Source of the DNA: Rufibacter roseus
Lineage (GTDB): Bacteria; Bacteroidota; Bacteroidia; Cytophagales; Hymenobacteraceae
Reading direction: 5' to 3'
Length of the DNA stretch: 64,000 nt
Assembly: GCF_001647285.1 (NCBI RefSeq)
Contig: NZ_LRML01000001.1
Coordinates: 248,001-312,000 of the forward strand
Shown here in pieces: positions 32,369-56,585 of this stretch. The first letter of the stretch is position 1. Every line of letters starts with the position of its first letter. A program made the position numbers and the translations under genes. The notes under the pieces are model-generated. The model had not been told where the DNA came from. It searched no databases and saw only the letters and a program-made list of their open reading frames with translations.

Positions 32369-34315
32369 TTAAAAGTCAGTGTCCAGGCCTAACCTAGTTT
32401 TCAAGTCTTTCAACACAGGGTACATCTCCGACAGGTAATTGTATTTATCTTGGGTGGTGTACAGCTTACGGCCATTTTCCTGCTGTACCACGTCAATATG
32501 CACTTGCAGACGGTTATGGCCTAAGCCTTGCCGCAGATACATCAGAAACTCTGGTTTGAAGCTATTGAACTCAGCCACCTGTACGTCGTTTTCCACGTGT
32601 AGGTGAACTTCTGCTTTTTCAGCGTCAAAGGTCCATTCGCGGTTCAGGATTGTGTATTCCAATGTGCGATCAGTGTTCCTTACCTGATTTACGTAGGCTT
32701 GCCACAGCTGCCGCAACCGCTGCTCGTTGATAGTGGGCAAGGAGCCCGGTACGTAATTTTCAGTTTCCTCTTCCAGTACTTCCACCGCCGGTGCTGCCTT
32801 GGCCGCCACTTGCTCTTCAATGTTTTTCAGGCTAGGCAGTTTTGAAAGCTTCCGACCAGACAGGGGAGAGGCTGCTGCCCTTGAAGGAGCAGCCGGAGCT
32901 GTTGCCGCCGCTGGTGCCGGGGCTTGTTTCGCCACGGAAGGAACCGGAGATGGTGCCTCAGCAGGATAGGTGTCAAATACCGGCTCTTGGCCCGCATCCA
33001 TGTCGGCGGGGGCAGTGTTGTGGTGCGTTTCTGCGCCGTTTTTCTGAAAGCTACCTGAAACTGGCTGCCCCGAAGAGGCAGGTTCTGGTGCAGAAACAGG
33101 AGCCGATGATGTGCCCAGGGCAGGAGTCGAACCAGCTGATGCCTGATGGGCTACGCCGGAACTTCCATTAATTTTTTTTTTGACGTCTCCGTTTAAAGAG
33201 ACGTCTGAGGCCAGTTGCAGAGCGTGGGGCAGATGCGCCAGCTTCATGAGCAGAAGTTCTACATGGAGCCGCTGGTTTTTCGCTGACTTAAAGTTCTGGT
33301 CACAGGTGCCTACCAGGTTCAGACCAGACAAAAGAAAACTAAGGCTTGCCTCCTGCGACTGCTTCGCGTACTGCGCCTTGATATTCTCAGATACCTGTAG
33401 CAGTTGCACCGTAACAGTGTCTTTGCACACCAGTAGGCTACGGAAGTGTTCGCCAATGCCCAGTATGAAGTTATGGGAGTCAAATCCGTTTTTCAGGATT
33501 TCATCATATAAAAGCAACGCGCCGCTCAGGTTCTGGGTGAGCAGAAAATCAGTGAGGCGGAAGTAATAGTCATAGTCCAGGATGTGCAGGTTCTGCACCG
33601 TGGCTTTGTAGGTGAGGTGGTTTCCGGAGAAGGTCACCATCTGATCAAAGATCGACAAAGCATCACGCAAGGCGCCGTCGGCTTTCTGGGCAATCAGGTG
33701 CAGGGCATCGGCATCGGCTTTAATTTCCTCTTTGGTAGCAATGCGGTCCAGGTGCTGCACCATGTCTTCAATGCGGATACGGTTGAAGTCGAAAATCTGG
33801 CAGCGCGATAGAATGGTAGGGATGATCTTGTGGCGCTCCGTAGTAGCCAGAATGAAAATGGCATAGGCCGGCGGCTCCTCCAGAGTCTTTAGAAAGGCAT
33901 TGAAGGCCGAGTTGGAGAGCATGTGCACCTCATCTATGATGTAGATTTTGTACTTGCCCGTCTGCGGCGCATAACGCACCTGCTCCACCAGATTCCGGAT
34001 GTCTTCCACTGAGTTGTTAGACGCCGCATCTAGCTCGTGCACGTTGAATGAGCTGTTGTTGTTGAAGCTCTTGCAGCTGTCGCACACGTTGCAGGCCTCT
34101 ACCTCAGGGGTAATGTTCTGGCAGTTGATGGTCTTGGCCAGAATACGGGCGCAGGTTGTTTTACCTACCCCTCTAGGGCCGCAGAACAAGAAGGCCTGCG
34201 CCAAATGGTTGCTGCTGATTGCGTTTTTTAAGGTAGTGGTAATATGGTGCTGCCCCACCACACTGTCAAAGGTGGTCGGGCGGTATTTACGGGCCGATAC
34301 AACAAAATTCTCCAT
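32369..34315 (-). CDS. dnaX: DNA polymerase III subunits gamma and tau
   Basis: 648 residues. Order: AAA+ domain I with Walker A GPRGVGKTT (45-53), a four-Cys zinc module (CQN..., CNVCDSCKSF), Walker B IIDEVHML and the SRC sensor motif LSRCQIFDF; lid domain II; collar domain III to about 365; then a Pro/Ala-rich linker and the C-terminal tau region that contacts DnaB helicase and the polymerase. It forms the clamp-loader motor of the replisome. An A10 run at 33172-33181 lies in frame at codons 379-382, directly behind a stem-loop. Either one-base slip gives a stop within a few codons, so a short gamma form of about 382-387 residues is predicted. Confidence 0.95.
   Translation of the reverse strand: MENFVVSARKYRPTTFDSVVGQHHITTTLKNAISSNHLAQAFLFCGPRGVGKTTCARILAKTINCQNITPEVEACNVCDSCKSFNNNSSFNVHELDAASNNSVEDIRNLVEQVRYAPQTGKYKIYIIDEVHMLSNSAFNAFLKTLEEPPAYAIFILATTERHKIIPTILSRCQIFDFNRIRIEDMVQHLDRIATKEEIKADADALHLIAQKADGALRDALSIFDQMVTFSGNHLTYKATVQNLHILDYDYYFRLTDFLLTQNLSGALLLYDEILKNGFDSHNFILGIGEHFRSLLVCKDTVTVQLLQVSENIKAQYAKQSQEASLSFLLSGLNLVGTCDQNFKSAKNQRLHVELLLMKLAHLPHALQLASDVSLNGDVKKKINGSSGVAHQASAGSTPALGTSSAPVSAPEPASSGQPVSGSFQKNGAETHHNTAPADMDAGQEPVFDTYPAEAPSPVPSVAKQAPAPAAATAPAAPSRAAASPLSGRKLSKLPSLKNIEEQVAAKAAPAVEVLEEETENYVPGSLPTINEQRLRQLWQAYVNQVRNTDRTLEYTILNREWTFDAEKAEVHLHVENDVQVAEFNSFKPEFLMYLRQGLGHNRLQVHIDVVQQENGRKLYTTQDKYNYLSEMYPVLKDLKTRLGLDTDF
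33172..33205 (-). promoter_or_regulatory. Predicted dnaX slippage / frameshift signal (stem-loop plus A10)
   Basis: In the mRNA, an 8-bp stem GACGTCTC / GAGACGTC (33205-33198 and 33189-33182, loop TTTAAACG) touches an A10 tract (33181-33172) followed by TTAATG. One extra A gives AAA AAA AAA AAT TAA: stop right away. One fewer A gives KKKLMEVPA then TAG. In frame zero the tau frame continues. The product would end just after domain III, as gamma does in E. coli. Confidence 0.65.
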
Positions 34316-54618: not shown

Positions 54619-55851
54619 TTATATCTGGTCTAAGGTGAGCAGTCTGCTGCGCACTAAGAGGCACGCTCCAATCACGCCTGCCTGCTCGCCAAGTTTAGAT
54701 ACCTTAAGCTGCGTATCAGTATTGACAAGACTAAGGGAATATTTGTTTATAGCGCTTTTTATTGGTAACAAGATGTACTCTTCAGTAGAAGAAAGACTGC
54801 CCCCCAATATTACCAATTCCGGATTGAAGATATTGATCAAAAGAGCAATGCCTTTGCCAATCTTTTCGCCAATTTGGGCAATCAGTTCAATAGCCAAGAT
54901 ATCATCGTTGTGGGCTGCTCTGATGATGTCTTCTAATTTAAGATCTTCAGGCTTTATGTTTTCTCGGGTAATGAGGGTAGAGGTGCCGGCCTGTAGGCTT
55001 TCTTTGAACATTTCAACCAATGCCCAGCCAGAAGCCTCTGTTTCCAGGCAGCCTTTCTTGCCGCATTTACAGATAATTTCGTTCTGGAAAATAGGAATGT
55101 GGCCAAACTCCCCAGAGTAACCTGACTTGCCGTAGTACAATTGGCTGTCTATCATCATGCCCATGCCGATACCGTAGTCCAAGTTGAGGAACAGTACATC
55201 TTTTTCGCCGTTCACCACGCCAGCGCAAAACTCACCATAGGCCATGGCTCTGGAGTCATTCTCCAGAAACACCTTTATGCCTACTTCTGACTCAATAATT
55301 TTGCTTAGCGGATCTTCGTAAAAGTGAAAAAAACTGTAACTGTAACCTTTGGCATAGTTAATCCGGCCAGACAGGTTAATGCCAATGCCTAATATCTTTT
55401 CACGGGGAATGGTGAGTTTGTTGATGAAATTTTTAATAATCTGGCAGAGTTCCCGTAAGGATTCTTCATTATTGGTTAAGCGGTAGGGGTATTGCTCAAA
55501 GCTACTGGCCAAATTTTTTTGAAAATCAGCCAAGCCAATGTTGATGTGGTGCTTTTTAACATCAATACCCAAAAAGAAACCAGATTCTGGGGCCAAACCA
55601 TAGACATTAGGCTTTCGCCCACCTGTGGAGTCTACTTTGCCATGGTCCTGCACTAATCCATCTTGAATAAGTTCATTCACCAGACTAGTAACTTTGGGTA
55701 TGCTTAAGCTAAGTTCTTTCCCTATTTCAGCAATGGTGGCATTTCCAACATTAGCAAAATAAGAAATAACTTTCTTTTTGAGATTCACATTTTTATAAGC
55801 CACACCAGTGGCGTTTTCGCTGTTTATATCTGTAAAAAAGTTAGTTGTCAT
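54619..55851 (-). CDS. ROK-family transcriptional regulator (NagC/Mlc-like), copy 2
   Basis: 410 residues from the ATG at 55851 (MTTNFFTDINSENATGVAYK); 12 more in-frame codons upstream are judged leader. Layout equals copy 1: winged helix (KKVISYFANVGNATIAEIGK, LSIPKVTSLVNELIQDGLVQ), then the ROK domain with FLGIDVKKHHINIG, EFGHIPIF and CKCGKKGCLE. Some 75-80 percent of residues agree by eye, and the DNA around the zinc motif is identical over 61 bases (55031-55091 against 43131-43191). It is convergent with the NAGPA-like gene and divergent from the FAD oxidoreductase-SusCD operon, which it is well placed to control. Confidence 0.9.
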   Translation of the reverse strand: MTTNFFTDINSENATGVAYKNVNLKKKVISYFANVGNATIAEIGKELSLSIPKVTSLVNELIQDGLVQDHGKVDSTGGRKPNVYGLAPESGFFLGIDVKKHHINIGLADFQKNLASSFEQYPYRLTNNEESLRELCQIIKNFINKLTIPREKILGIGINLSGRINYAKGYSYSFFHFYEDPLSKIIESEVGIKVFLENDSRAMAYGEFCAGVVNGEKDVLFLNLDYGIGMGMMIDSQLYYGKSGYSGEFGHIPIFQNEIICKCGKKGCLETEASGWALVEMFKESLQAGTSTLITRENIKPEDLKLEDIIRAAHNDDILAIELIAQIGEKIGKGIALLINIFNPELVILGGSLSSTEEYILLPIKSAINKYSLSLVNTDTQLKVSKLGEQAGVIGACLLVRSRLLTLDQI

Positions 55852-56585
55852 TTTTTTTTCAGTATGGTATTTAGGAGGATGATGCATTCAATAGAGTTAG
55901 TTCAAATTTATTCTTTTTTAAAAATCTTTTAATGGAAACTGCTGCATATTATAAAAGTTAAGCTGCTTTTATATTTGATATAGCTTAAATCAAAGAGTGA
56001 GTTAAGTAATTCAAAAAATTGTATAAGTAAGTTAGACCTCCTAAACAGTGTGATTAAGCCCTTACATTGGTATATCAATATGAGAGTCTCTACTACCTGT
56101 AGATATGAATTCCTTAAAATCAATGTAAGGCTAACTGTAGACTGGTGAAGATCATTCTATCTTATAATCTCAAAAGACTAATAGGTAGTTTGGTGTTGAT
56201 TATCGAAGAGGGCAAAAAAATGCCTTATCTATAAGAAGGTTTCCTATTCTTATTGACTCAGTCATAAAAGTTATTAAAATACAAGCCATTACTGGAAGTT
56301 TATGAATAAGCAAACTCCTAAAACCTTACAATTAGTTAGCTAAGGCAGGATAGGAGGCTATTGGAACTGACCTTTCTTGATTAGGCATCTACACAACAGA
56401 GTCAACTTCCCCTTCTTTCATCTCTAAAATTTCAGTGCTTACAGCAGTTGGGGTGCTTTCAAGATAAAAAGTATCATTTCTTTTGAAGGAACGGATGTCT
56501 TTTTTAAAAACTTAATAAAAATAATTAATAATTTCTTGTTGTTTTTAAAGGTTATTGCTACTTTAGTGTTGAACAATAATTTAAT
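55852..56585. promoter_or_regulatory. Long divergent control region of ROK copy 2 and the FAD oxidoreductase-SusCD operon
   Basis: About 730 bases, AT-rich, no supported gene. It contains an inverted pair AGCCCTTACATTG / CAATGTAAGGCT (56056-56068 and 56121-56132) and the presumed operon promoter at 56536-56566. Confidence 0.5.
56536..56566 (+). promoter_or_regulatory. Probable promoter of the FAD oxidoreductase-SusCD operon
   Basis: TTGTTG at 56536-56541 and TACTTTAG at 56559-56566 (consensus TAnnTTTG), 17 bases apart, 20 bases before the start codon. Confidence 0.4.

Follow-up and report, generated by a model that had tools for sequence, protein, structure and literature searches.

Comparative sequence analysis points to a ten-adenine run in Rufibacter dnaX as a programmed RNA-polymerase slippage site, probably shared across much of the class Bacteroidia

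Programmed RNA-polymerase slippage is, to our knowledge, known in rather few cellular genes. One of them is dnaX of Thermus thermophilus, in which transcriptional slippage occurs on a run of nine A residues (PMC1088944; PMC5009743); the hybrid of the Thermus polymerase is reported as 9-10 bp long, and where slippage efficiency is near 50% a single-base change can reportedly reverse the roles of both products (PMC5009743). In E. coli, dnaX is instead subject to a −1 ribosomal frameshift (PMC3711429, PMC5009743). A GeneTack analysis found A10 in nine split dnaX genes and predicted polymerase slippage for them, with clusters showing shifts in different directions for one gene function as a criterion for such predictions (PMC3711429); the nine species may include Bacteroidota, and the part of that account devoted to split dnaX mentions no stem. 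Stems beside slippery runs are described for transposases: slippage in Roseiflexus IS630 is enabled by a stem that the nascent RNA forms 5' of the slippery site (PMC5009743), and in IS1447 a stem is predicted next to A9T (PMC6211511). Thermus dnaX slippage and A10 in nine split dnaX genes are already in print; a literature search that took in few subscription journals and no supplements returned PMC3711429 as the one relevant paper on slippage or frameshifting in Bacteroidetes dnaX, and found in it or elsewhere no stem abutting the run in dnaX, no A10 with tau in frame 0 across Bacteroidia and no dnaX frame swaps in both directions.

Here we describe the dnaX gene of Rufibacter roseus, which lies in a window of 64,000 nucleotides (the whole stretch of DNA analysed, part of a 5.1-Mb genome). 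The gene occupies 32369-34315 on the minus strand and encodes tau (648 residues) in frame 0, an assignment based on the open reading frame, Pfam matches and a match to NF011531 (E 9.6e-245). An uninterrupted A10 at 33172-33181 (minus strand) spans codons 379-382 in phase 0. By translation, A10 reads to 648 residues, A11 to 382 residues, closed by a TAA at 33168-33170 (minus strand), and A9 to 387 residues, adding L-M-E-V-P-A before a TAG at 33151-33153 (minus strand); the lengths 382 and 387 recur in 16/16 Rufibacter loci. Pfam matches domain III of gamma/tau up to residue 365, short of codon 379 where the run starts, so that the clamp-loader domains are complete in both short products. These readings bear out the preliminary description, which had placed an uninterrupted A10 at these codons just past the clamp-loader domains, with an immediate TAA after one extra A and a TAG six new codons on after one A fewer. 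The site resembles that of Thermus, compared here by description, in its sense-strand A run in dnaX, tau in frame 0, close stops in both other frames and a gamma predicted from the sequence to come from slipped transcripts; it differs in having ten A rather than nine, in the stem that abuts the run upstream in Rufibacter, and in its phylogenetic distance. With the GeneTack split genes it shares an A10 in dnaX and a prediction of polymerase slippage, but those are spread over two ORFs and yield tau only by recoding, whereas Rufibacter tau is frame 0.

On both strands the genome holds three runs of exactly A10, that of dnaX included, and one A11; by our own count 71 overlapping A9 matches merge to 66 runs of A9 or longer, one of them the A11. 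The remaining runs of A10 or longer (two A10, one A11) lie outside long genes: at one of these three no frame is open for more than 24 residues, and the other two neighbour long ORFs, the only frames over them being mechanical ORFs of 112 and 81 residues. An Rfam scan of dnaX returned nothing over threshold. A terminator formed by the stem and the run was considered and rejected, as a scan of 32900-33500 found none there; the one terminator-like site in that interval lies elsewhere, on the other strand. Separately, an A9 run at 55851-55859 of the window (minus strand), close to the start of a 422-residue ORF (54619-55887, minus strand), is a possible slippage or phase-variable site.

We read the A10 as a site of programmed RNA-polymerase slippage by which the gamma:tau ratio is set, a reading to which we assign a probability of about 0.82. 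Over the run the RNA-DNA hybrid would be all rA:dT and could realign, producing transcripts with nine, ten, eleven or more A; a length of ten is close to that of the hybrid reported for the Thermus polymerase. The Rufibacter transcript emerging behind the run can form a 9-bp stem adjacent to the hybrid; by analogy with Roseiflexus IS630, this stem would be expected to hinder backtracking, loosen the upstream end of the hybrid and raise slippage. Messages with A10 or A10+3n would give tau, and A11- and A9-type messages, which on translation stop at 382 and 387, would both give gamma; in some lineages the template frame would be that of gamma, and tau would need the slip. Several features favour the polymerase over the ribosome: a length that hardly departs from ten, a codon phase that varies freely, stops in both alternative frames, frame changes in both directions and a stem that lies upstream rather than downstream. 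The comparative data agree with each part of the original proposal for this locus, namely that slippage is programmed, that both slipped classes give gamma and that unslipped messages give tau.

To place the run in its phylogenetic context, dnaX was matched in 59/59 genomes of a relatives set (Rufibacter roseus included), 146/148 of a phylum sample and 199/200 of a family sample; a part of these and of 80 named contigs gave the 276 loci analysed, of which 269 were unique around the site and 249 were taken as Bacteroidia-level. The search covered about 110 codons past the aligned domains, and most runs lay at codons 354-396, with a few further along (for example at codon 454 in locus L104). The 249 loci comprised 168 with A10, 17 with A9, 14 with A11, two with A12, one with A13 and 47 with fewer than nine A, the last made up of 27 from genus g3, two from genus g2 and 18 others. 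Adding 69 loci from the family of genome G114 (87/90 genomes matched; 70 places read, one already in the set) brought the total to 318, with 223 A10, 22 A9, 22 A11, two A12, two A13 and 47 shorter, so that A9 or longer stands behind the clamp-loader domains in 271/318 Bacteroidia-level loci, these samples being relatives and not independent draws. A further sample chosen by closeness to another dnaX had A9-A11 in 26/30, 21 of them A10 (three of the 30 genomes were already in earlier samples), and outside the class, at one locus per family, A9 or A10 occurred in 9/20 and no run of at least seven in 11/20. This distribution suggests that most of the class Bacteroidia may use A10 slippage for gamma and tau.

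Closer to home, the run is exactly A10 in 16/16 Rufibacter loci (g1), in 8/8 loci of genus g4 and 8/8 of genus g5, both of the same family, and in 46/53 loci of the Hymenobacter-type genus g6, where five have A11 and two A9 (three named loci of g6 type are counted under "other"). Two same-family genera have lost it: g3 (0/27; 26 A7, one A6) and g2 (0/2). The preliminary description had named conservation of the run in relatives as a check and its interruption in close relatives as contrary evidence; within the genus no interruption was seen among the 16 loci, and beyond it conservation stops short of g2 and g3. The pattern known from Thermus, a run of at least about nine A at the gamma/tau boundary with stops soon in both other frames, is found here with its length kept in relatives except g2 and g3.

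The length of the run is held in every codon phase, with 100, 60 and 42 sites in phases 0, 1 and 2 (202 loci). Both non-tau frames stop within 10 codons at 191/202 sites, two of the 202 having no clear tau frame, compared to 16.9% of 20,160 same-gene control positions. In Rufibacter the −A stop is TAG in 14 species and TAA in two, and it persists even where the amino acid changes. Lys codons at the run are AAA throughout (3/3); other invariant Lys columns are all-AAA in 3/17 cases in Rufibacter, 0/10 in g6 and 2/12 in g5, and in 10/18 in g4, where codon choice therefore says little. The frame that opens tau, scored at 267 loci, is 0 in 213, +A in 47 and −A in seven. On one FastTree tree, built from the N-terminal part and with branch support not weighed, this requires at least 36 changes of tau frame, and because some of these may be homopolymer errors of draft genomes we also give the count among A10-only loci, at least 22. 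Such swaps are visible even inside g6, where tau requires +A in two A9 loci (L207, L211) and −A in three A11 loci (L208-L210).

A stem-loop of nine pairs adjoins the run in Rufibacter roseus, with arms at 33197-33205 and 33182-33190 and a loop at 33191-33196 (minus strand). The arms GACGTCTC and GAGACGTC (33198-33205 and 33182-33189) are perfectly complementary over 8 bp, as had been reported for the stem directly before the A10, and one added G-U pair makes 9 bp around a 6-nt loop. Folded in 30 nt, the stem has −13.1 kcal/mol (z −3.57; 1/200 shuffles as good), and in 120 nt it is kept within a fold that is unexceptional as a whole (z −1.83; 12/200 shuffles as good). The stem is near-complete in 15/16 Rufibacter species, with a mismatch in L014; over 12 distinct rows 99.1% of cells are paired across the nine pairs, and RNAalifold recovers the same upstream stem. 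One pair is changed on both sides (G-C/C-G), altering both encoded residues (V to L, D to E), and the covariation score was reached by 22/500 shuffles; with g4 added, covariation was no better than in shuffles (203/500). By energy the stem beats 95% of synonymous resamplings in 12/16 Rufibacter loci, 3/8 of g4, 3/8 of g5 and 6/53 of g6. By gapless stem length this holds for 6/16 Rufibacter loci, the weaker result arising because the encoded residues already favour pairing.

A second group with a stem is Flavobacteriaceae (our family f25, equated through named members such as Aquimarina and Flagellimonas), which typically has an 8-bp stem with a 4-nt loop abutting the run. Stems of at least 7 bp occur in 57/90 of its loci compared to 7.3 expected, 31/90 loci taken one by one outdo 95% of resamplings, and no other offset tested has more than 16 loci with a stem ending there. 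Among the 84/90 loci with a common phase, which give 62 distinct rows, pairing holds in 74.0% of cells, double-changed cells number 20 compared to 9.7 when shuffled, and the covariation score was reached by 0/500 shuffles, a control that does not remove relatedness; the number of pairs with double changes was unexceptional (reached by 150/500). Of 267 sites, 74 have a stem of at least 8 bp that ends at the run, and no other offset tested collects more than 12. Elsewhere stems of at least 7 bp were found in 0/8 g4 loci (where the stem is interrupted), 3/53 g6 loci, 8/93 other loci and 0/26 of the further sample. The stem, whose conservation the preliminary description had named as a check, holds almost throughout Rufibacter and is not general, at least 8 bp being reached in 2/53 g6 loci. 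A general requirement for a stem was also considered and is rejected, since most A10 sites lack one once Rufibacter, g5 and Flavobacteriaceae are set aside. Since the A10 is kept without a stem in many relatives, the stem is probably at most stimulatory, and we read it as a lineage-specific enhancer of slippage rather than a requirement. A conserved stem directly 5' of the run, as in IS630, is found in Rufibacter and Flavobacteriaceae, and like IS630 and IS1447 the site would pair a nascent-RNA stem with a slippery run directly 3' of it or adjacent to it; those are transposases with T5C5 or A9T, however, whereas dnaX is a replication gene, and the IS630 stem is called enabling whereas the dnaX A10 persists without one.

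The alternative that survives best overlaps with polymerase slippage and has both machineries at work: the polymerase would set most of the ratio and ribosomes would add −1 events, or the hairpin would act on the ribosome side and damp −1 shifting. We consider this possible but doubtful. All the elements it calls for are present at the site, and in human cells −1 frameshifting is reportedly weakened by an upstream hairpin (PMC6321510), but nothing in the data requires such a scheme, and a stem that adjoins the run regardless of codon phase (0 in Rufibacter, 1 in 84/90 Flavobacteriaceae loci) would suit the polymerase exit channel better than ribosomal sites. In any event −1 ribosomal frameshifting could add some gamma alongside polymerase slippage.

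Less probable still is −1 ribosomal frameshifting by itself, as in E. coli dnaX, in which ribosomes aided by a GGAG would slip on A_AAA_AAA and stop at the TAA to give gamma, the length of the run being incidental. The locus shares with E. coli the gene, the two products, an A heptamer and a possible Shine-Dalgarno-like element, a GGAG at 33187-33190 (minus strand) in the 3' arm of the stem. This GGAG sits 7 nt before A_AAA_AAA, and in E. coli dnaX the two elements are separated by a similarly short distance. GGA makes up only 17/224 Gly codons in the N-terminal part of the 16 Rufibacter genes, yet the stem Gly codon is GGA in 13/16; it is GGG in the other 3/16 species, in which the motif reads GGGG. 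The in-phase A_AAA_AAA lies within the A10, but it is present in every A10 and needs only seven A, whereas a length of ten persists in all three phases. This reading would leave unexplained the −A stop that 16/16 Rufibacter loci conserve, and the seven loci where only −A opens tau are a misfit. The hairpin, moreover, is upstream and not downstream as in E. coli, and the slippery sequence is A10 rather than A_AAA_AAG: a gapless downstream stem of at least 7 bp occurs in 0/16 Rufibacter loci, in line with the earlier suggestion that the upstream geometry points to the polymerase, and RNAalifold downstream of the run in Rufibacter gave four pairs at −1.8 kcal/mol and no frameshift hairpin (in g5, 2/8 loci have a downstream stem of at least 8 bp). 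Bacteroidia ribosomes are also reported to occlude the anti-Shine-Dalgarno sequence, though prfB frameshifting persists there (PMC8710568). The rival gains from the genome's tRNAs and from genus g3, in which 26/27 loci have A7, 20/27 a GGAG shortly upstream and the consensus a 7-pair hairpin 5 nt downstream. As to the tRNAs, tRNA-Lys(UUU) is the one Lys tRNA found; two lysine tRNAs, suggested as the reason for polymerase slippage in Thermus (PMC5009743), are rejected as a reason here, tRNA-Lys(UUU) alone being found among the tRNAs read. ARAGORN read 33 of 38 tRNA places (30 loci and three in flanks), with 150 of 256 candidates scored, and the five other places, 82-87 nt long, have a length that would suit Leu or Ser tRNAs.

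That there is no programme, KKK being kept for the protein and the run being a hypermutable accident or a DNA-level phase-variation tract, is most improbable: homopolymers mutate easily and A9 and A11 species exist, but run length hardly varies across many families, AAG is kept out of the run though common in the gene (Rufibacter, g6), and the adjacent stops in both alternative frames and the frame swaps would have no place.

Returning to polymerase slippage, a wider picture can be drawn to which we give even odds. In it, a ten-A slippage cassette would be the standard and probably ancestral gamma/tau switch of the class Bacteroidia, working with such efficiency that selection hardly acts on the template frame, which would have changed dozens of times; the abutting stem would have arisen at least twice as an enhancer, in the Rufibacter line and in Flavobacteriaceae; and lineages that lost the A10 would have substituted for it, in the same position, ribosomal frameshifting (g3) or perhaps UAG readthrough (three uncultured Bacteroidetes). 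If so, a replication gene of a whole class depends on polymerase slippage, and the natural swaps of frame, enhancer and mechanism are ready-made mutants. With a −A product ending in LMEVPA, mass spectrometry could distinguish polymerase slippage from a −1 shift of the ribosome, and the site would offer a housekeeping gene in which to see whether slippage is raised by nascent-RNA stems beside the hybrid.

In most loci of g3, a genus that includes L023-L027 and L186, the A7 is followed by GCTAAGGTAGC, and a −1 shift there meets TAA after one codon. The GGAG shortly upstream (20/27 by our own count) is formed by a codon, GGA, that accounts for only 27/349 Gly codons in the gene region. The seven pairs of the downstream hairpin are nearly invariant and show no double change, so covariation neither supports nor opposes it. 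By its sequence elements this looks like frameshifting of the E. coli type in a close relative, with slippage apparently handed over from the polymerase to the ribosome; locus L206 of g3 has A6 with gamma in frame 0. The two g2 loci likewise have gamma as the frame-0 product. Tau becomes accessible in L032 through +A or a −1 shift at A_AAA_AAG and, judged by eye, L031 is arranged alike, a reversal of the E. coli layout.

Three dnaX genes of uncultured Bacteroidales/Bacteroidetes without an A-run carry an in-frame UAG at codon 367-368, at the gamma/tau boundary (L140, 3599-3601; L151, 2788-2790; L170, 3602-3604). The frame stays open for 570-765 nt after the UAG and has a tau-like end, and the context UAG-AUU-GCW-AGG is common to all three, making these loci candidates for stop-codon readthrough to tau. 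Two of the three have names with RUG, which we take to denote rumen, and a class sample of 395 genomes held no relative of L140 above 66% identity. In another Bacteroidales dnaX without an A-run, L141, the reading frame closes at 383, beyond which the +1 frame is open over a long stretch.
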